Shown: positions 11,759-21,667 of the stretch, one piece after another
How positions within the stretch are numbered: position 1 is the stretch's first letter
Layout: each line of letters opens with the position of its first letter
NCBI RefSeq assembly: GCF_018139625.1
Contig: NZ_JAGSOH010000003.1
Span: 1-64,000, forward strand
Source: Actinospica acidithermotolerans
GTDB lineage: Bacteria > Actinomycetota > Actinomycetes > Streptomycetales > Catenulisporaceae
Length of the DNA stretch: 64,000 bases
Direction: 5' to 3'
Notes under the pieces: generated by a model
What the model was told of the DNA's origin: nothing
Databases searched by the model: none
What the model saw: the letters and a program-made list of their open reading frames with translations, nothing else
Program-made: the position numbers and the translations under genes

Positions 11759-12550
11759 GTGACGCAGACCATGATCGAGCCGTGGGCCCTGGCAGCGGGC
11801 GAGCACGTTTGCTGGCGGGCGGCGTCGGCGCAGGACTACGCCACAGGCCGCGATGCGCTCACGGCGCACGCTCGTCGGCACGCGGGTGGCCTGATCGTCC
11901 TCGACGAAGAAGAGACCGGTCACGGCGGTAGCGAGGACGAGAGCCCGGCCGCGACGTCACGCAACACCCTCGCCGCCCTCATTGCCGTACGCGATCGCGT
12001 GTACGAAGCTCGCCGCGCCGGTCGCACGCCCTGGGTCCTGGCGTCCATGGAGTGCCTGACCTCGCTGGACGCGCCGGCGGCCGAGGTGGTCGCGGTCGAA
12101 CTGGAGCTCGCCGAGCTGGCCGCCGACGCCGATACCGGCGTCGTCTGCGCCTACCGGACCCCGCTGTGGAAGCCGACGCTGCTCGGCGATATCGCGGCCG
12201 TGCATTCGCGGGTCGTCGGCGCGTCCAGCGACGTGAGGCAGAGTGCGTCCGGGTTCCGTCTGCGGCCGACCGGCGCGCACTGCTACGCCCTCGAAGGCAG
12301 TGTCGGGTTCGATTCGCTGCGCGCGTTCACCGCGGCACTGCGCGGGGCCCTTCTGCGCGCGCCCCACCTTCAGCTGAGCTGCGAGCGGCTCGAACTCGTC
12401 GAGGCGGCGGCGTGGCGGGCCCTGGTGGAGACCGTGGCCGCCACCGCTGGGGCGTCCGTGCTGCTCGATCGCGCGAACGAGACCGTCCGGTGGACGTGGG
12501 AACTGTCCGGCTACGGCGGTTCCGGTGTCGCGGTGCAGGTGCGGTCATGA
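11759..12550 (+). CDS. MEDS-STAS sensor protein (anti-sigma antagonist type)
   Basis: About 263 residues. The N-terminal 'GEHVCWRAASAQDYATGRDA' and 'HAGGLIVLDEEET' fit the MEDS (DcmR-type) sensory domain, thought to bind small hydrocarbon derivatives. The C-terminal part ('HCYALEGSVGFDSLRAFTAA' and 'LQLSCERLELVEAAAWRALV') has STAS-domain spacing. GTG 11759 or ATG 11771 may be the start. The ATGA overlap with the next gene, which also has a MEDS domain but ends in an anti-sigma ATPase, indicates a coupled sensor pair. The two would act in the cytoplasm as a partner-switching module; the ligand is unknown. Confidence 0.7.
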   Translation: MTQTMIEPWALAAGEHVCWRAASAQDYATGRDALTAHARRHAGGLIVLDEEETGHGGSEDESPAATSRNTLAALIAVRDRVYEARRAGRTPWVLASMECLTSLDAPAAEVVAVELELAELAADADTGVVCAYRTPLWKPTLLGDIAAVHSRVVGASSDVRQSASGFRLRPTGAHCYALEGSVGFDSLRAFTAALRGALLRAPHLQLSCERLELVEAAAWRALVETVAATAGASVLLDRANETVRWTWELSGYGGSGVAVQVRS

Positions 12551-13491
12551 GCCAGATCACCGCCGCCTCGCCGGGCCTGCTGCACATGATCTACCCGTAC
12601 GCGGGCCAGCAGCAGTACGTCGCCGGCACGCTCTCGTACATCGAACAGGCGCGCGCAGCCGGGGCAGCCGTCCTCGTCGCGACGTCGCAGGAGCGCCGCG
12701 CCCTGCTCGGCTCGCACCTGCCCTCCGACGACGGCGTGACCTTCATGGACACCGCCGCGCTCGGCCGTAACCCGGGTCGCCTGATCCCCGCGTGGCAGGA
12801 CTGGATCGACCGGCGCACGGACGGACGCGCCGTGCACGGCATCAACGACGCGACCGCGACGCAGCGCGGCTCGGCGTACGAGGGCGAGGCGCGCTACGCC
12901 GAATGGCTGCTGAACCAGGCCTTCGCCAAGGCCCCGGCCTGGTCGCTGCTGTGCCCTGTGGACACGGGGCTGCAATCGGCCTCGGCGATCGAATCCCTCA
13001 CCCGCTGCCACCCGCAGGTATGGGACGGCACCGGCTATTCCCCGGTCGCCGACTACTTCCTCGAGCCGTACGCGCAGGACGATCTGACCGCGCCGACCGG
13101 GGCCGTGGAGTGCATGACCTTCACGATCGACGAGCTGTCGGCGGTTCGCGACAAGGTCGCTTCCTTCGCCCGGGCCCACGGCCTGCCGCTCAAGCGGACG
13201 CGCGAGCTGATCCTCGCGGTGAGCGAGGTGGCGACCAACAGCATCCGCTACGGCGGCGGAACCGGGACTCTGGTCGTGTGGGCGCAGGAGGACGCGCTGA
13301 TCTGCGAATTGCGTGACGACGGCGTGATCACCGACGCGCTCGTCGGCCAGCGCCGCCCCCCGGCAAGCCAGCTCGGCGGCCGCGGCCTCTGGTTCGTCAA
13401 CCAGCTCTGCGACCTCGTGCAGCTTCGCTCGGCCCCGGGCCGGGGAACGCGCATCCGGCTCTGGATCGATCGCACCGACCGGCACGCGTAA
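12547..13491 (+). CDS. MEDS domain - anti-sigma ATPase (RsbA-like)
   Basis: 314 residues. The N-terminal two thirds are a MEDS domain ('LLHMIYPYAGQQQYVAGTLS'), and the C-terminus is a HATPase_c/RsbW-type kinase: N box 'LAVSEVATNSIRYGGG', 'CELRDDGVI' and 'LGGRGLWFVNQLCDLVQL', then 'GRGTRIRLWID'. Such proteins bind a sigma factor or phosphorylate a STAS partner. The ATG overlaps the stop of the MEDS-STAS gene. Two copies of a 68-bp segment cover its 3' end (13436-13565). It converges on the B12/STAS operon. Sensor input and target sigma factor are inferred, not shown. Confidence 0.8.
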   Translation: MSQITAASPGLLHMIYPYAGQQQYVAGTLSYIEQARAAGAAVLVATSQERRALLGSHLPSDDGVTFMDTAALGRNPGRLIPAWQDWIDRRTDGRAVHGINDATATQRGSAYEGEARYAEWLLNQAFAKAPAWSLLCPVDTGLQSASAIESLTRCHPQVWDGTGYSPVADYFLEPYAQDDLTAPTGAVECMTFTIDELSAVRDKVASFARAHGLPLKRTRELILAVSEVATNSIRYGGGTGTLVVWAQEDALICELRDDGVITDALVGQRRPPASQLGGRGLWFVNQLCDLVQLRSAPGRGTRIRLWIDRTDRHA

Positions 13492-13565
13492 GCCGCGGTA
13501 GCGCGGGCCGGGGAACGCGCATCCGGCTCTGGATCGATCGCGCCGACCGGCACGCGTAAGCCGCG
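13436..13565 (+). repeat. 68-bp tandem duplication of the MEDS-ATPase gene 3' end
   Basis: Copy 1 spans 13436-13503 and includes the last 17 or so codons and TAA stop (13489-13491). Copy 2 starts at 13504 and runs to about 13565 with one difference in the aligned part (A to G at 13542). The 68-bp period is not a multiple of three. The second copy is untranslated and lies between the two convergent genes. Confidence 0.93.
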
Positions 13566-13572
13566 ATGGCCG

Positions 13573-13920
13573 CTACTCGGCCAGCGCGGCGTCCACGTCG
13601 GCGAATATAGGCAACGTCTCCAGCAGGCCGGTCATCTCGATCACGCGCTCCACCTCCGGCCCCACCTCGACCAGTCGCAGGGCGCCTCCCGCCTGACCGG
13701 CGCGCTGCGCCGCGGCCAGCAGGACGCGCAGGCCGGATGAGTCCATGAAGCCGCACGCGCCCATCTCGATCACCACCAGGCTGTTGCGCGAAAGGCTCTC
13801 CGCGAGCGGCTCGCGCAGCGCCTGCGCGCTGGCGAGGTCGAGATCGCCGCGGATCGAGAGCACCGCCCGGCCCTCGCGCGGGTGGGACACTGTCACCGCG
13901 AACGGCTGGTTCCCGTCCAT
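13573..13920 (-). CDS. STAS-domain anti-sigma factor antagonist
   Basis: A 115-residue single STAS domain. 'AVLSIRGDLDLASAQALREP' is the first strand/helix and 'CGFMDSSGLRVLLAAAQRA' contains the conserved DSSG loop whose Ser is phosphorylated by the partner ATPase. It is the last gene of the minus-strand operon that begins with the SpoIIE-type phosphatase at 17745; 15 bp separate it from the anti-sigma ATPase gene. By family logic the unphosphorylated form sequesters the anti-sigma ATPase and frees a sigma factor. The sigma factor is not encoded next to it. Confidence 0.88.
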   Translation of the reverse strand: MDGNQPFAVTVSHPREGRAVLSIRGDLDLASAQALREPLAESLSRNSLVVIEMGACGFMDSSGLRVLLAAAQRAGQAGGALRLVEVGPEVERVIEMTGLLETLPIFADVDAALAE

Positions 13921-13935: not shown

Positions 13936-14319
13936 TCAGGCCTTGAACCAGTAGGCGTACACCGTCTTGCCGGGTCCCGCCGGGTTCGGCCGGACCTCGA
14001 GCTTGTTCGTGAGCTTCTCGACAATCACCAGACCGAGCCCGCCCTCGCCGGCGGTCGAGAAGGGGCGCCGGCGCGGCGGATCCGCGCTCTCGTCCTCGAC
14101 CTCGACCACGAGCCGCTGCTCGTCCGCGGTGATGCGCAGGCGCCACCAGCCGGATGCGTGCCGCACGGCGTTGGTCACCAGCTCGGAGACGACCAGGGCG
14201 ACCGCCGCCGCCGGAGCCCACGGGCAGTGCTCGGCCAGGTACCGCCGGGCCGCCGCCCGGGCCTGCGCGATGCTGTGGCCGTCGGAGACGAGTTCGAAGC
14301 GTGAGAGTGTCATGTCCAT
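13936..14319 (-). CDS. Anti-sigma regulatory ATPase (RsbW/HATPase_c)
   Basis: A 127-residue GHKL ATPase-kinase. The N box is 'LVVSELVTNAVRHASGWWRL', the G1 box lies in 'VEVEDESADPP', the G2 box is 'EGGLGLVIVEKL'. Length is typical of stand-alone anti-sigma switch proteins. ATG 14319 shares one base with the TGA of the double-STAS gene (TGATG), so translation is coupled. It should bind a sigma factor or phosphorylate one of the three STAS domains encoded in the operon. The order phosphatase, B12 protein, STAS-STAS, ATPase, STAS is a full partner-switching set. Confidence 0.88.
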   Translation of the reverse strand: MDMTLSRFELVSDGHSIAQARAAARRYLAEHCPWAPAAAVALVVSELVTNAVRHASGWWRLRITADEQRLVVEVEDESADPPRRRPFSTAGEGGLGLVIVEKLTNKLEVRPNPAGPGKTVYAYWFKA

Positions 14320-15002
14320 CAAGCCCGCACCTCCTGCGGATCGACGCCGCCGACGTCGCCGTCGCCTTCGGCGAGATCGAACACCCTGATCAGCCCCGTG
14401 GCCTCCAGCAGCGTCCGCACCGCCGGCCGGAGCGGGCCCAGTACGCGGACCGGGACGCGCTCGCGCACGCTCAGGAGAAGGTGCAGCAGCGTCGAATCGG
14501 CGAACCGCAACCCGGCCACGTCGACGGATATCCCGGCGGGTGACGAGCCGGCCGCCTCGTCCAGCGCGCTCCTGACCTCGTCCGCGCAGTCGTCGTCTAT
14601 CTCGCCGTGCAGACGGACCACCGCCCTTCCCTCGCGCCGTTCCAGCGTGGCGCCCCCGAACGGCGCGCCTGATTCGTGAAACAGGGCGCTGACACCGGTC
14701 ACGGCGAGGAGTCCGCGCAGGTAGTCGGTCATCCCGCTGATGGTGATGCCCGCGCCCCGGGACGCCGCGTCGCGCTGCGCCATCAGGAGCGCCGCGAGGC
14801 CGGTGGAATCGCAGAATTCGAGCCGACCGCAGTCGACGACGATCGACTCCCCGGGACGCGTCGCGGCCAGCACCGCGTCCAGCGCCTCGCGGAAGTCGTC
14901 CACGGTGTCGTGGTCGAGCTCGCCGTGCAGGTCCAGGCCGGGCGCGCCGCCGGCGTCGCTCCTCACCCGCGCGATCGGCCGCGCGGAGCCGAGATGGCTC
15001 AC
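14319..15002 (-). CDS. Tandem double STAS-domain protein
   Basis: 227 residues holding two STAS domains. The first has 'LDLHGELDHDTVDDFREALD' and 'LEFCDSTGLAALLMAQ' (DST phospho-loop); the second has 'AVVRLHGEIDDDCADEVRSA' and 'LRFADSTLLHLLLSV' (DST loop, with Leu instead of Gly). Two linked STAS domains could give two phosphorylation steps or bind two ATPases. GTG at 15002 overlaps the TGA of the B12-protein gene (GTGA), and its own stop overlaps the ATPase gene start, so the three are tightly coupled. Cytoplasmic. Confidence 0.85.
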   Translation of the reverse strand: MSHLGSARPIARVRSDAGGAPGLDLHGELDHDTVDDFREALDAVLAATRPGESIVVDCGRLEFCDSTGLAALLMAQRDAASRGAGITISGMTDYLRGLLAVTGVSALFHESGAPFGGATLERREGRAVVRLHGEIDDDCADEVRSALDEAAGSSPAGISVDVAGLRFADSTLLHLLLSVRERVPVRVLGPLRPAVRTLLEATGLIRVFDLAEGDGDVGGVDPQEVRA

Positions 15003-16111
15003 CGGCGGTCCTCCTTCAGGTCCTCCAGGGCCGCTGTGAGGAACCCGGCCGCCCGCGGGAACTCGCGCAGGCGGTCCCTGGCGGCCTCGAGCCCTGCCGT
15101 CAGCGCGTGATCCGGGACGCCGCGCGCCTGCAGGATCTCGCGCGTCCAGCCGCTGAAGGCGACGAACAGTTCGGCGTCGTCGACGTACGTTGCGCACGCC
15201 AGGTATTCGAGGATGGAGTCGATGTCCTGCTCGGTGTGCCGCATCTGGCTCTCGCTGTAGTCGCGCATGCGCGGGAAGCGCGCGGGCAGGTCCGCGAGGA
15301 TCGCGGCGGCGAACTGGAGCCGGCCGCGGCGCAGCAGCGTGTACTCCTGGTCGGACAGGTGCGGCAGATCGTCCACGGCCTGGTGCGGGGAGCGCGGCCG
15401 GGGAAGGGCCGACTGGAGCGACTCGGCGGCCGCGCGCGCGTCGCCGGCCCATCCGTCCGCGTTGAGCAGCCGCGCGTGGCGCCCGTCCGGGCCGAAGGCC
15501 GCGCCGCCGGCGAGGACCGGGACGCCCGCGGCCTGGCAGGCGGTGATCACGGCGTGCGCGGCGGGCAGGCGGGTGGCGAGGGAGGCGGAGAGCGCGACCG
15601 CGTCGGGGCCGCTCTGATGCAGGTGCGCGACCAGGTGCGGGCCGGGGACGTGGGCGCCGAGGAAGTCGACCTGCCAGCCGCGCAGCGCGAGCACCTCCGC
15701 GAGCAGGCGGGCCGGCATGGCGTGCCACTCGCCGTCGGCGCAGGCGACCGCGACGCGGCCGGCCGCCGGGGCCTGGGCGTCGCGGAACCCCGGATGCGCC
15801 GCGAGGGCGGCGACGACCCGGTCCCCGATCGCGGTCGCGGCATGCTCCTGGGCCACGGAGAGCCGGGCGGCGGCCCAGTCGGTCCCGATCCGGCGCTGGG
15901 CGCCGCCGATCAGGTCGAGCAGCAGGCACTCGGGATCGACGCCGTCTTCCAGGGCCCGCCTGGTGACGCCCCACGCCGTGCGCTCGTCGCGCGCGATCAG
16001 CGCGTCCCAGTAGGCCTGTCGCTGCTCGGCGCTCACGCCGTCGGCGGACCCGGACGTCTGCCGCGGGGGCGCGGGCAGGGCGGTCGCCGTCTGCTCGGCG
16101 GCCTGGTGCAT
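14999..16111 (-). CDS. Cobalamin-binding protein with CarH-type photoreceptor motif
   Basis: 370 residues. Residues 28-115 form a helical bundle containing W79, nine residues, then E89-H90: the W-x9-EH signature that caps adenosylcobalamin in CarH/LitR light receptors. 'DGEWHAMPARLL' follows, with H130 in the place of the lower axial Co ligand (E-x-H), then a Rossmann-like B12 fold ('VDFLGAHVPGPHLVAHLHQS', 'ALSAS', 'VPVLAGGAAFG'). There is no MerR DNA-binding domain. Instead a C-terminal all-helical domain of about 125 residues ('QMRHTEQDIDSILEYLACAT') resembles helical sensor/globin-like domains of RsbR-type proteins. ATG 16111 has GGGAGG upstream. Its position between phosphatase and STAS genes suggests that it feeds light or B12 status into partner switching; this is inference. 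Confidence 0.82.
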   Translation of the reverse strand: MHQAAEQTATALPAPPRQTSGSADGVSAEQRQAYWDALIARDERTAWGVTRRALEDGVDPECLLLDLIGGAQRRIGTDWAAARLSVAQEHAATAIGDRVVAALAAHPGFRDAQAPAAGRVAVACADGEWHAMPARLLAEVLALRGWQVDFLGAHVPGPHLVAHLHQSGPDAVALSASLATRLPAAHAVITACQAAGVPVLAGGAAFGPDGRHARLLNADGWAGDARAAAESLQSALPRPRSPHQAVDDLPHLSDQEYTLLRRGRLQFAAAILADLPARFPRMRDYSESQMRHTEQDIDSILEYLACATYVDDAELFVAFSGWTREILQARGVPDHALTAGLEAARDRLREFPRAAGFLTAALEDLKEDRR

Positions 16112-16137
16112 CTCAACCTCCCTCGATATCTGGTACG

Positions 16138-17745
16138 TCAGGCCTCGGCGACGGCCTCGCCGGTCCTGGCCGGCCAGAGCGGCGCGGTGATGGCGATCAC
16201 CGCGGTGTCGTCGTGCGGCTCGGATCCGGCCCACTGCGCGGCCACCATCTGAACGCGCTCGAGGACGGCTTCGGCGGGCATGCCGGAGCATTCCCCGAGA
16301 ACGCGCGCCAGCCGCGCGGTGCCGAACATCTCGCGGCCGGTCGCCCCGCCGCGCCCTTCGGTGATCCCGTCGGTGTAGAGCAGGCACGTCTCGCCGGGCG
16401 CGAGCACCACCTCGCTGCTTTCGGCGCTGACCGTCGTCAGGGCGCCGATCAGCGTCCCCCGGCTCCGGACCTCCTCCACCGCGCCGTCGGCCCGCACCAC
16501 CAGGGGCGGCGGGTGGCCGGCGCAGGTCACCCGCGCGACCACGTTCTCGCCGTCCGAGCGCACGGAGGCGAGGACCATGGTGGCGAAGCGGGTGTGGCGC
16601 GAGCTGAGCAGCGCGCCGTTGAGCAGGCGCAGCATGCGGACGTGGTCGTACTCGACGGTGCGCAGAGCCGCGATGCTGCTGCGGATCCGGCCGGTGAGCA
16701 CGGCCGCCTCGATCCCCTTGCCGCACACGTCGCCGAGCACGATCAGCGCGTTCGGATCCTGCGGCGTCGGCGGATGGAAGTCGTAGAAGTCGCCGCCGAC
16801 ACGTTCGTCGCCGAGCGCGGGCCGGTAGCCGCCGGCGAGCTCGATGCCGTCGACGCGGCTGAGCACGGGCGGCACGAGTTCGTCCGTCAGCACCCGGGCG
16901 ACGGTCGACTGCCGGGCGAAGAGCAGGCCGGCGCTGATCGCCGCTCCGGCGCGCGCCGCGAACAGGCGGGCGAAGGCCTCCTCGTCCTCGGTGAACTCGC
17001 CGCTGCGCGCGCCGCGCAGCAGGATCAGCGCCCCGGCGGGCACCCCGTTGCCCGGGAGCGGCGTCACCACCAGCGAGCCGACGGGGCCGAATCCGTCCGG
17101 GACGAGCCAGTCGGGTGCGGCGGCCGGGTCGAGCCAGCGCGAGGGCACCGGCGGGAAGCCCTGCAGGGCCTCGGCGAGCCCGGGAACCTCGGCGGGATCG
17201 AGCCTGCGCACCTCGGTCGTGACCGGGCCGCCGCGGCGTGCGCAGGTGAGCGCGAGGCCGCGCCGCGCCGGAGGAGCCACCACGATCGCGAGTTCGGCGA
17301 GGTGCTCCGCCGCGAGCGACGCCGCCGTGGCCGTCGTCTTCTCCACGTTCAGGGAGGCGAGCAGCCGGTTCGACGCCTCGATCAGGAACGCCTTGCTCTC
17401 GCGCTCCCGGGTCAGGTCCCCCTGCAGGGCTTCGTACTCGGTCCGGTCGGAGAGCCACCAGGCGGTGTTTCCGCCGGGCCACAGGCTCACCCGCCCGTGC
17501 AGCACCCGTTCGCCGACCGGGCCGACGGCCTGGGTCTCCCCCGCGTCGTGCGCTCGGACGAGCCATTCCGGCGCGCACTGCGCGAAGGAGGCGTCGACGA
17601 GCACGCCCGGCACCGAGTCGACGGCCGCGGCGTTGGCCTCCCGCACCACACCCGCCGCGTCGACCACGACGACCGGGAACGGGGACGCCGCGAGCGCCGT
17701 CGCGATCCCCGCCCGCGGATCGTCCAAACCCGATTCCACCTGCAT
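16138..17745 (-). CDS. PAS-GAF-SpoIIE-type (PP2C) phosphatase
   Basis: About 535 residues. An N-terminal PAS-like segment ('PFPVVVVDAAGVVREANAAA') is followed by a GAF-like region (about 130-300) and a PPM/SpoIIE phosphatase domain with 'RVGGDFYDFHPP', 'VLGDVCGKGIEAAVLTGRI', 'LLYTDGITEGRGG' and 'EPHDDTAVIAI', which supply the Asp metal ligands. This class (RsbU/RsbP) dephosphorylates STAS antagonists. ATG 17745 has GGGAGG 5 nt upstream, better than the upstream ATG at 17781. It is the first gene of the partner-switching operon running to 13573; 26 bp separate it from the B12 protein gene. Confidence 0.9.
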   Translation of the reverse strand: MQVESGLDDPRAGIATALAASPFPVVVVDAAGVVREANAAAVDSVPGVLVDASFAQCAPEWLVRAHDAGETQAVGPVGERVLHGRVSLWPGGNTAWWLSDRTEYEALQGDLTRERESKAFLIEASNRLLASLNVEKTTATAASLAAEHLAELAIVVAPPARRGLALTCARRGGPVTTEVRRLDPAEVPGLAEALQGFPPVPSRWLDPAAAPDWLVPDGFGPVGSLVVTPLPGNGVPAGALILLRGARSGEFTEDEEAFARLFAARAGAAISAGLLFARQSTVARVLTDELVPPVLSRVDGIELAGGYRPALGDERVGGDFYDFHPPTPQDPNALIVLGDVCGKGIEAAVLTGRIRSSIAALRTVEYDHVRMLRLLNGALLSSRHTRFATMVLASVRSDGENVVARVTCAGHPPPLVVRADGAVEEVRSRGTLIGALTTVSAESSEVVLAPGETCLLYTDGITEGRGGATGREMFGTARLARVLGECSGMPAEAVLERVQMVAAQWAGSEPHDDTAVIAITAPLWPARTGEAVAEA

Positions 17746-17928: not shown

Positions 17929-18759
17929 TCACTGTCGTCGCCACCTGGCCTCGCACAGCGAGTACGCGCCGAACGAGACGAGACCGGCGGCGATGAGGAT
18001 CAGCACCAGCGGTCCGAGCGGCGCGGAGGCGAAGGCGCGCAGCGTGCCGTCCACGCCGCGGGCCTGCGCGGGGTCGTAGGTGACGGCCGCGTCGATGAGG
18101 AACGCGCCGGCCGCGACCGCGATGACCGCGCGCGAGACCTGCCCGGCCGCGCCGAGCCACACGACCGGGCGACGGGCGGCGGCGGGCATGGAGCCGGTGT
18201 CGAGGTCCTTCGCGAACCGCCTGCCGATCCCGTGCTTGATCATCACGGCCCCGCCGATCACCAGGCCCGCGCCGACCGCCGCGACCAGGATCTGGCCGCC
18301 TGCACGCCGCATCGCGACCGCGGTGTAGTCGGTCGAGACCTGGTTGGTGGATCTCGCGTGCCCGGTCACCGCGTATCGCGCGGTGGTGTACCCGGCGACG
18401 GCGTAGAAGAGCGCCGTGAATCCCGCCGCCACCCGGGCCCCGGCGCCGCGCTCGCCGCGCTGATCCGGCCTTGCTGCCAATACCGCCATCCACACCGCCA
18501 TGCAGGCGAATCCGACGATCAGAAACCACAGCACGATGAACCCGAACGGCTTGCCCGCGAGCAGTTCGAGAGCGCCAGTCCGATCGTCCTCTGTCGAGCG
18601 GCGGGCGAGCGCGATCATCAGCGTGATCCAGCCGATGAGCAGGTAGACCAGCCCGCGCGCGACGAGGCCCACGCGGCCGAGGGCGCCGACCGCGTCCTCG
18701 GCGTCGGCGTTCGAAACCATCGCGCGGGCACGGTCGCGGGCGCGCCCGAAGTCCGTCAT
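17929..18759 (-). CDS. DUF1206 membrane protein
   Basis: 276 residues starting MTDFGRARDRARAMV, with six hydrophobic segments arranged as three similar pairs ('VGLVARGLVYLLIGWITLMI', 'GFTALFYAVAGYTTARYAV', 'AGQVSRAVIAVAAGAFLID'). Repeated R-x-G-L/V-Y/I turns match the DUF1206 family. GGGAG precedes the ATG at 18759; longer starts read a low-complexity segment of short direct repeats (18770-18828) that is unlikely to be coding. An integral membrane protein of unknown function, isolated between the partner-switching operon and a STAS gene. Confidence 0.83.
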   Translation of the reverse strand: MTDFGRARDRARAMVSNADAEDAVGALGRVGLVARGLVYLLIGWITLMIALARRSTEDDRTGALELLAGKPFGFIVLWFLIVGFACMAVWMAVLAARPDQRGERGAGARVAAGFTALFYAVAGYTTARYAVTGHARSTNQVSTDYTAVAMRRAGGQILVAAVGAGLVIGGAVMIKHGIGRRFAKDLDTGSMPAAARRPVVWLGAAGQVSRAVIAVAAGAFLIDAAVTYDPAQARGVDGTLRAFASAPLGPLVLILIAAGLVSFGAYSLCEARWRRQ

Positions 18760-18876
18760 CGGCTCCCGATCAGACCTATCCGACTGACCCGACCGGTCCG
18801 ACTGATCCGGCCATCCGAGTGAACCCACCGTCGCACCCGCCTAATTCGCCTGCTCCGCCTGCTCCGCGTGCTCTCT

Positions 18877-19221
18877 TCAGCCCTTCAGCGCCGAAGGCAC
18901 GTCGGGGTACAGGCTCAGCTCGGACAGCAGCCCGGCCATCTCGAACACGCGCAGCACCGGCGTGCCGACACCCGCCCACCGGATGGACACGCCCTCCTGG
19001 CCCGCCCAGGCGAGCGCCTGCACCAGCGTGCGCAGACCCGAGGAGTCGCAGAATCCGCATTCGCTCAGGTCGACGACCACCACCGGGGTGTCGAGCGCGT
19101 CCATCAGCGGCCGGTGCAACTTCGTCGCACCCCACAGGTCGAGGTCACCCGATACCGCGACCACGACCCGGTCGTGCTCAACCGCCTCGACGACCACTTC
19201 GAACTCTTTGTCCACGACCAT
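18877..19221 (-). CDS. STAS-domain anti-sigma factor antagonist
   Basis: A 114-residue STAS domain: 'VVVAVSGDLDLWGATKLHRP', 'VVVVDLSECGFCDSSGLRTL' with the DSSG phospho-acceptor loop. It is the fourth STAS-containing gene in 7 kb. It stands alone, divergent from the universal stress protein gene 182 bp away. It may be an extra partner for one of the two anti-sigma ATPases nearby; this pairing is inferred only from location. Confidence 0.87.
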   Translation of the reverse strand: MVVDKEFEVVVEAVEHDRVVVAVSGDLDLWGATKLHRPLMDALDTPVVVVDLSECGFCDSSGLRTLVQALAWAGQEGVSIRWAGVGTPVLRVFEMAGLLSELSLYPDVPSALKG

Positions 19222-19403
19222 CGCTCCATGCTCCGCTCTCTACGCTGCGGGGCCCGAGTACCCGTCAGCCACGGAAGTAATCAGCTGGTCAGTGCCGGGC
19301 CCGCCGGCCGCCGGGCGCATGGAACCCGGGCAAGCGGGCATACGCGGGCGCCGACCCTGGTTTCGGCGAAATGACGTGGCCGGTATGGAAAGGCGATCAA
19401 CGC

Positions 19404-20345
19404 ATGACTGCGAACATTGACCCGTCGGAAACGCACCGTGTCGTCGTGGGCGTCGATGCTTCGGAGAGTTCCGGGCACGCCGCCTTCTGGGCCGCGCGCG
19501 AGGCATCGATGCGCGGCGTGCCGCTGACCCTCGCCCACGCTCTGCACCTGCCCACCGCCGCCGTGGCGCCGTACGAGCCGCCGGAGCTGGCGGCGGACTT
19601 GCAGGCCGCCGGGCGCGAACTGGTCTCCGGCCTCACCGCGAGCATTCGCGAGCGGTACCCGGACCTCGAGGTCAACGCCGAGTTCTCGCCGGCCTCCCCC
19701 ACCAACATGCTCCTCGGGATTTGCGCCCCGGACGTGCTGGTCGTCATCGGCAACTCGGGCCACGGCGTGATCAAGGGACTGCTTCTCGGCTCGGTCAGCC
19801 GTGCGGTCGCGCTGCACCCGGAGGGGCCGGTGGTGGTCGTACGCGGCCCGGAGCCCGAGCAAGTCGACGGCGCCGTCGTGTTCGGCGCGAGTCCAAGCCC
19901 GAGCGACACGGCCGTCGATTACGCCTTCGCAGCGGCGCGACGCTATGCCGCTCCGCTGCGCGTCATCCGTGCGTGGACGCCGGCGGTACCGCCGACTATG
20001 GCGGCCGCTCCGATGAGCGCCATGGCTCTCGGGATCAGCGGCCCGGGCGTCGTCTCGGCCCCGGTGCAGACCTCTGACAGCGACGCGGACGAGGCGGCGG
20101 ACGCGGCGCGAGCGATCGAGCCCTACCGGGCGAAGTACCCGGACGTCGAGGTCGAGATCAGCGCGGCGGCGGGCGATCCGGCCGCCGCGCTCGCGGAGGC
20201 CGGCGCCGACGCGCGGCTGGTCGTGCTCGGCGCACACCACCACGGGCCGCTCTCGCTGGGTCTTTCGTCGGTCGCGGAGGCGCTGCTGTCGCGCTCGTCG
20301 GCCCCGATCGCCGTCATCCCGCCGTGCGACGGAGACATCTCATGA
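19404..20345 (+). CDS. Universal stress protein, tandem USP domains
   Basis: About 313 residues with two USP domains. The first starts 'RVVVGVDASESSGHAAFWAA' and ends with the ATP-loop 'GNSGHGVIKGLLLGSVSRAV'; the second starts 'GAVVFGASPSPSDTAVDYAF' and ends 'GAHHHGPLSLGLSSVAEALL'. The G-x2-G-x9-G-S/T pattern in the first suggests an ATP-binding USP. ATG 19404 has GGAAAGG upstream; ATG 19371 is an alternative. Its stop overlaps the start of a Ser/Thr kinase gene (ATGA), so the two are made together. A kinase-USP stress module is likely. Confidence 0.9.
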   Translation: MTANIDPSETHRVVVGVDASESSGHAAFWAAREASMRGVPLTLAHALHLPTAAVAPYEPPELAADLQAAGRELVSGLTASIRERYPDLEVNAEFSPASPTNMLLGICAPDVLVVIGNSGHGVIKGLLLGSVSRAVALHPEGPVVVVRGPEPEQVDGAVVFGASPSPSDTAVDYAFAAARRYAAPLRVIRAWTPAVPPTMAAAPMSAMALGISGPGVVSAPVQTSDSDADEAADAARAIEPYRAKYPDVEVEISAAAGDPAAALAEAGADARLVVLGAHHHGPLSLGLSSVAEALLSRSSAPIAVIPPCDGDIS

Positions 20346-21667
20346 CCGCGGCCGATCTGGCGCACCGGATCGAGGAGGAGGGCGGTTTCCCGGCACGGTG
20401 GACGCGATGGGAGCGCGGCCGGCTCGTCTCCGGGCGCTACCGCCTGCTGCGGCCCCTCGGATCCGGGGGTACCGCGCACGTCTGGGCAGCCCGCGACGAA
20501 GCGCTGGGCCGTGAGGTGGCCGTCAAGGCGCTGTCGCGCGTCGCCGGCGAAGGCGGCGGCCACGAGCGCGAGCGCCTCGAGCGGGAGGCCAGGCTGCTCG
20601 CCGGCCTGCGCCATCCGCTGATCGTCACCGTCTTCGACTTCGTCGAAAGCGACGAGGGCGACGAGAACGGGGACGGCTGCCCGTTCCTGGTGACCGAGCT
20701 CCTCAGCGGCGAGAGCCTGGGCTCTCGGCTCAAGCGCGGGCCGATCTCGACGTCCGAGGCGCTGACGGTGTGCGGGCAGGTGGCCGACGCCCTCGCCACC
20801 GCGCACGCATCCGGCGTGGTGCACCGCGACGTCAAGCCCGGCAACGTGATGCTCACCGCGCGCGGCGCCGTGCTCCTCGACTTCGGCATTTCCCGCCGCG
20901 CGACCGACGCGGACCTGACCGGACAGGTCGTGATCGGCACGCCCGCCTGCATGGCTCCCGAGCAGTGGCGCGGTTCCCCCGCGCAGCCCGCGTCCGACGT
21001 CTACGCACTCGGCTGCCTGCTCTACTGGTGCCTGAGCGGCCATGCCCCGTATCCCGACCGGGAGCTTCCCGCGCTGGGGATGTCGCACCTGCTCTCCGAT
21101 CCTCCCGCACTGCCGCTGACCGGCGGAAGGCGGACGGAGATCGACGCGCTCTACCAGGCTTGCGCGCGCAAGGACCCGAACGACCGGCCGAGCGCACGTG
21201 AGGTCGCCGGCGCGTTCGCAAGCCTCGGGCCGTCCGCATCGGCGGCGTCGTCAGCGGCCTCGGTGGCGACCACCGCGGCGGCGGCGGATGACGAGGATCT
21301 GACGCGCCCGGTCCACCGCCCGCGCCGCCGTACCCGGCTCGCGGTCTCCCTCGCCGCCGCCGGCGCGGCGCTTGCGGCCTCGATCGTGGTTCCGCTGAGC
21401 CAGACGGACGAGAGCCCGACGGCGTCGACCAAGACCGTCTCACCGCGTCCGTCCACCCCGAGCGGTCAGATATCGCCGGGCAACAGCAAGATCTCGGTCA
21501 ACGCGGCGGCCACGGCGAGCAGCACGGCGGCCGGCGCAGGCACGACGGCGGCCGGGTCCGGAAGCACGGCGGCGGCTCCCGCTGCGGCTCCGGCCGCAGC
21601 CGCGGCCGCGAACAGTGGTCGGAACGGGCACGGTCACGGACGCGGCCATGGAAAGCACGGCGGATAG
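20342..21667 (+). CDS. Membrane-anchored Ser/Thr protein kinase
   Basis: 441 residues. The kinase domain (about 30-290) shows glycine loop 'LGSGGTAHVW', 'EVAVKAL' (ATP Lys), catalytic loop 'HRDVKPGNVML', 'DFGISRR' and 'APEQWRG'. A single TM segment ('[20 protein letters not shown]') follows near residue 350, then an extracytoplasmic Ser/Thr/Ala-rich tail ending in the His/Gly repeat 'NGHGHGRGHGKHGG'. No PASTA repeats. The tail could bind metal ions, but this is speculative. Start ATG 20342 overlaps the USP gene stop. Substrates are unknown; USP and STAS proteins nearby are candidates. Confidence 0.9.
   Translation: MTAADLAHRIEEEGGFPARWTRWERGRLVSGRYRLLRPLGSGGTAHVWAARDEALGREVAVKALSRVAGEGGGHERERLEREARLLAGLRHPLIVTVFDFVESDEGDENGDGCPFLVTELLSGESLGSRLKRGPISTSEALTVCGQVADALATAHASGVVHRDVKPGNVMLTARGAVLLDFGISRRATDADLTGQVVIGTPACMAPEQWRGSPAQPASDVYALGCLLYWCLSGHAPYPDRELPALGMSHLLSDPPALPLTGGRRTEIDALYQACARKDPNDRPSAREVAGAFASLGPSASAASSAASVATTAAAADDEDLTRPVHRPRRRTRLAVSLAAAGAALAASIVVPLSQTDESPTASTKTVSPRPSTPSGQISPGNSKISVNAAATASSTAAGAGTTAAGSGSTAAAPAAAPAAAAAANSGRNGHGHGRGHGKHGG

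Follow-up and report, generated by a model that had tools for sequence, protein, structure and literature searches.

A photocobilin gene paired with a SpoIIE phosphatase gene suggests light switching of a sigma-factor pathway in actinomycetes

Introduction

What does a B12-binding protein sense, and which partner does it address, when its gene is embedded in an operon of partner-switching genes? The question arises in the window, the whole 64,000-nucleotide stretch of Actinospica acidithermotolerans DNA analyzed here, which carries the following features.

16138..17745, (-): PAS-GAF-SpoIIE (PPM/PP2C-type) Ser phosphatase, 535 aa, operon gene 1
14999..16111, (-): photocobilin, 370 aa, with an AdoCbl-binding helical bundle and Rossmann domain (~28-233) and a bilin-binding photoglobin domain (~255-367)
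14319..15002, (-): double STAS protein, 227 aa (Pfam STAS_2 over two stretches, 1.8e-30)
13936..14319, (-): HATPase of anti-sigma-factor type (SpoIIAB/RsbW/RsbA-like), 127 aa from ATG (HATPase_c_2, 3.1e-15)
13573..13920, (-): single STAS anti-anti-sigma factor, 115 aa, with a DSSG motif (Pfam STAS, 5.5e-22)
12544..13491, (+): convergent MEDS-HATPase, RsbA-family anti-sigma regulator (NF041045, 283 bits with a cut-off of 210; Pfam MEDS, 5e-16)

Photocobilins, described in 2024, bind AdoCbl and biliverdin, light removing the adenosyl group, and can change the activity of a separate enzyme in a light-dependent manner through protein-protein contact (PMC10979010). A link to SpoIIE and STAS proteins was already suggested in that work, where STAS, SpoIIE and PP2C-like phosphatases are the predicted partners of the Saccharothrix syringae photocobilin SasPcob (PMC10979010). 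Both the protein family and its suggested SpoIIE/STAS link are therefore published; the present analysis adds how widely and strictly the SpoIIE gene is linked, that specific pairs are co-inherited, that the B12 site is more constant than the bilin site, and that a canonical heme oxygenase is missing.

Results and Discussion

The B12 protein of the operon

Sequence and model comparisons identify the B12 protein as a standalone, full-length photocobilin, a known type that uses vitamin B12 and, probably, biliverdin for light sensing. Its closest solved relatives are the SasPcob structures 8J2X/8J2W, matched by phmmer over residues 29-356 with E=6e-79, and 8j2w is also the first-ranked Foldseek hit of its AlphaFold model (mean pLDDT 87), with 46% identity and TM-scores of 0.81 by query and 0.90 by target. 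In this model, residues 1-27 have no secondary structure, with pLDDT below 50 for residues 1-23, and the C-terminal domain (~255-367) is all-helical, as the initial annotation had proposed. Pfam assigns B12-binding (PF02310, 2.4e-17) and B12-binding_2 (PF02607, 4.1e-12), and phmmer gives weak matches to phycocyanin for residues 267-350. Since the match to SasPcob is full-length and the alignment with CarH is confined to the B12 domain, the C-terminal helical domain is a bilin-binding photoglobin; photoglobins are relatives of the RsbR globin (PMC10151467). With a bilin-binding globin at the C terminus, the range sensed may reach red light.

The residues of both predicted cofactor sites are in place. 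The CarH-type W-x9-EH cap (W79-x9-E89-H90) and the E/DxH ligand motif (E128-W129-H130) read exactly as first noted. In the alignment, W79, E89, H90, H130, H159, D296 and W322 correspond to SasPcob W61, E71, H72, H108, H137, D270 and W296, so that the bilin-contacting D296, W322 and H159 are kept (Asp270, Trp296 and His137 in SasPcob). H108 is the Co ligand in SasPcob, D270 contacts the bilin and W296 its ring D (PMC10979010).

A Pfam scan of the protein detected no HTH, in agreement with the earlier reading. That reading had called it a CarH-type B12 photoreceptor, which captured an AdoCbl site without HTH and missed both the photocobilin family and the bilin-binding globin. Membership in CarH/LitR is rejected, as the HTH is missing and the CarH equivalog scores 43.5 bits against a cut-off of 400; a methyltransferase-type corrinoid protein is rejected as well, its matches being weaker than the photocobilin ones.

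Organization of the operon and its surroundings

The genes of the operon are tightly coupled, as the initial annotation had noted. A 26-nt gap separates the SpoIIE gene from the photocobilin gene, which overlaps the double STAS gene by 4 nt (GTGA); the double STAS and ATPase genes share a TGATG overlap, and the single STAS gene follows after 15 nt. The interval first assigned to this arrangement, 14319-17745, covers the SpoIIE, photocobilin and double STAS genes and omits the ATPase and STAS genes named with it. For the ATPase, the ATG at 14319 is the preferred start, the TTG at 14322 given by the ORF tool being less likely. A scan for promoters and terminators gave no result.

The SpoIIE phosphatase is recognized by Pfam (SpoIIE, 4.4e-42; GAF, weak), and its AlphaFold model (pLDDT 92) comprises a PAS-like region (10-100), a helix (102-129), a GAF-like region (134-270), a long helix (253-290) and the phosphatase domain (301-520), the PAS and GAF regions being assigned by eye from secondary structure. 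The metal Asps are D319, D339, D459 and D512/D513, and among PDB entries the protein matches Rv1364c of Mycobacterium tuberculosis (3KE6) best. Each of the three STAS domains encoded in the operon has a DS motif; the CDST and ADST sites of the double STAS protein place a phosphorylatable Ser at the SpoIIAA-type position, and the single STAS protein scores above cut-off with TIGR00377. The ATPase matches RsbA (5.7e-15) and spIIAB (4.1e-05) of NCBIfam, both under cut-off. No operon protein matched RsbR, RsbS or RsbT in NCBIfam; membership in a stressosome is thus rejected, and the term stressosome-like, taken strictly, is not supported.

Two overlapping MEDS genes (MEDS-STAS and the RsbA-family MEDS-HATPase; 11765-13491, plus strand) point at the 3' end of the operon, both carrying MEDS, another sensor domain, and the convergent MEDS-HATPase (12544..13491) is a possible further partner of the operon. 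A 68-bp tandem duplication with 98% match (13436-13570) lies at the 3' end of the MEDS-HATPase gene and includes its stop codon. On the other side, positions 17929-21667 adjoin the operon and hold genes for a DUF1206 protein, a further STAS protein, a universal stress protein and a Ser/Thr protein kinase.

The SpoIIE gene is a conserved neighbor of photocobilin genes

We looked for photocobilin homologues in 41 relatives and in 345 genomes belonging to the class, examined stretches of up to 16.5 kb, and identified neighbor genes by running profile searches on six-frame ORFs. In 54 of 61 actinomycete loci (50 genomes, 17 genera, 10 families), the gene immediately upstream, on the strand of the photocobilin gene, encodes a SpoIIE phosphatase; 9 of 9 further loci from a named genome collection, mostly Streptomyces, have the same arrangement. 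With just 13 other SpoIIE domains in all the stretches read and 29 SpoIIE genes across the 7.9 Mb of the window's genome, the probability of such adjacency arising at random is negligible. Among photocobilin loci from the phylum's other classes, none of 16 has an upstream SpoIIE gene; in two of them (L136 and L147) the upstream side is truncated by a contig end. The SpoIIE-linked photocobilins cluster in the tree: all 64 fall on the same side of a split with support 0.77, together with 3 unlinked proteins and SasPcob. The paired phosphatases were recognized by Pfam as SpoIIE in 32/32 cases and as GAF in 21/32, PAS being rarely detected. One locus carries a tandem photocobilin pair (L084/L085) behind a single SpoIIE gene.

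In 39 loci a STAS gene lies downstream at a distance of no more than 150 nt; 37 of these have the phospho-Ser and 2 have Tyr. The conserved adjacency with SpoIIE and STAS genes, suggested at the outset as a check, is borne out. The ATPase adjoins the SpoIIE-photocobilin module in some genomes only. Besides the window, its two family members L056 and L057 have a double STAS protein; in L070, two successive STAS domains lie in separate frames. In L056 and L057, the first STAS domain has Tyr (CDYAGL) instead of the phosphorylation-site Ser, which the window protein keeps.

The downstream genes raise the alternative that the photocobilin addresses the STAS or ATPase protein directly, sequestering it by contact, and not the phosphatase. 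The STAS gene next in 39 loci and the ATPase of the window operon would agree with such a target; however, the phosphatase is the more constant neighbor, and several linked loci have neither STAS nor ATPase nearby, so we consider direct targeting very improbable.

The phosphatase and photocobilin genes are inherited together

A mirror-tree comparison of photocobilin and paired-phosphatase distances gave r=0.93 (n=62; 0/2000 permutations reach the value), a correlation inflated by shared species history, and genomes carrying two pairs therefore provide a cleaner test. In three of them (G043, G282 and G247), each copy groups with its counterparts in the other two genomes at distances of 0.5-1.5 in both trees, the distance to the second copy of the same genome being 2.8-3.6 in both; in the fourth (G201) there is no such separation, its own copies being about as close mutually as to others. 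The SpoIIE and photocobilin genes thus co-inherit, and in three of the four two-pair genomes each phosphatase goes with the lineage of its photocobilin instead of with its genome.

These data bear on the idea that the shared operon reflects only a common stress response, photocobilin and phosphatase being expressed together without direct contact. Operons often group genes by regulon, and none of the loci read has a SpoIIE-photocobilin fusion, both of which would suit such an arrangement. Strict adjacency across 10 families and, in three genomes, paralogous pairs that are each inherited as a unit nevertheless exceed what shared expression needs, and we hold this explanation to be quite improbable.

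The B12 site is constant and the bilin site optional

The B12 residues are intact in 63 of the 64 SpoIIE-linked photocobilins, and the metal Asps in all 62 paired phosphatases. The sole B12-site exception, L096 (G098 C5, 357000-373000), has W->R and H130->R together with bilin D->Y and W322->R; it is a naturally blind photocobilin homologue that retains the SpoIIE phosphatase gene upstream. Homologues that keep the operon and lose W, E and H, which the initial annotation would have counted against a light sensor, are thus limited to this single case in 64, too few to overturn the reading. The bilin Asp is replaced in 11/64 (L029, L096, L097, and a group made up of L098, L100-L105 and L110), ten of which have complete B12 residues; accordingly, it is B12 that stays constant and the bilin that is optional.

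The window's genome has a gene for ATP:cobalamin adenosyltransferase; searches of it for the canonical heme oxygenase PF01126 and for HugZ-type DUF2470 found neither, and biliverdin may therefore be absent from this host. Counting the window's own, 42 linked genomes have the bilin Asp; 24 of them carry PF01126 and 18 lack it, so that the bilin-contacting Asp is retained without this enzyme in the window's own genome and in 17 others. No photocobilin stretch has a heme oxygenase gene as an operon neighbor, and co-occurrence across the class is weak by hand count (32/59 genomes with photocobilin, 117/286 without). A bilin site that is kept where the canonical heme oxygenase is commonly missing raises the question of the source or use of the bilin.

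The strict retention of the B12 residues, the looser retention of the bilin Asp and the 18 genomes without canonical heme oxygenase would also suit a cooperation of photocobilin and SpoIIE in which the cue is AdoCbl availability or the cobalamin redox state and the light chemistry is incidental. Against it, the W/EH cap, which holds the photolabile adenosyl group, has been retained and the close relative SasPcob is photoactive (PMC10979010), and we regard such a cue as unlikely.

A proposed light-gated phosphatase

The firm results of this analysis are the identity of the protein, its cofactor and catalytic residues, the gene order and the pair-specific co-inheritance. Given the conserved pair and the published control of an enzyme by photocobilin contact, we favor, with modest confidence, a model in which the state of the photocobilin gates a dedicated SpoIIE phosphatase and hence the STAS/anti-sigma switch and a distant SigB/F/G-type sigma factor. 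AdoCbl would be held by H130 as lower ligand and by the W79/E89/H90 cap, with biliverdin probably in the photoglobin, and in the dark the protein would presumably form a head-to-tail dimer. Light would cleave the Co-C bond, the adenosyl group would be lost and the dimer would open, in line with the dimer-to-monomer transition of photoactive SasPcob in light (PMC10979010). The changed state may then alter the contact with the PAS/GAF/helical-linker part of the phosphatase and thereby its activity. The phosphatase would dephosphorylate one or more of the STAS proteins encoded downstream at a Ser, and the unphosphorylated STAS protein would bind the anti-sigma ATPase, releasing a SigB/F/G-type sigma factor encoded elsewhere. 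Seven such sigma genes score above cut-off in the genome, all off the window's contig; none was found in the operon or on that contig. We infer the contact with the phosphatase, the sign of the effect, the STAS substrate, the sigma target and the biliverdin occupancy; activation of the phosphatase by light is the likelier sign.

We see about an even chance that this amounts to a dedicated, widespread actinomycete pair whose B12 (and bilin) light sensor acts directly on a PPM phosphatase and thereby on a sigma partner switch, and so to a light input to stress or developmental sigma control that differs from the LOV stressosome as well as from CarH repression. Standalone photocobilins have no known natural output, and the conserved, co-inherited SpoIIE neighbor names one. 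If the model is true, sigma-factor control would be coupled to light in many actinomycetes, and optogenetics would gain a useful part in a light-gated PPM phosphatase.

Comparison with known systems

The standalone SasPcob (PDB 8J2W dark/8J2X light pair) resembles the window protein over its whole length and in domain order, with the same AdoCbl and bilin residues at the identity and TM-scores given above; it differs in that its control was tested on a foreign diguanylate cyclase, the STAS/SpoIIE link there being a prediction. AbDPcob, a photocobilin-diguanylate cyclase fusion (PDB 8J2Y), has the same photosensor module and a light-gated enzyme, but its enzyme is fused and is a cyclase, its identity to the window protein is 32%, and the bilin Asp is replaced by His. 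CarH/LitR proteins (Thermus thermophilus CarH, PDB 5C8D) share the AdoCbl helical bundle and Rossmann domain, the W-x9-EH and the ExH, whereas the window protein lacks the MerR DNA-binding domain and has a photoglobin, its output being probably a protein contact.

On the phosphatase side, Rv1364c (PDB 3KE6) and the RsbU/RsbP-type phosphatases place a SpoIIE-type phosphatase in a partner switch, as here; Rv1364c has its kinase and STAS domains fused within one chain, and it is not known to work with a B12 sensor. In the Bacillus RsbR/RsbS/RsbT stressosome with YtvA, light reaches a sigma switch of STAS, ATPase and phosphatase proteins through a flavin LOV chromophore. The window operon would share with it the light input to a sigma switch, but has no RsbR/RsbS/RsbT match and would use B12 instead of flavin.
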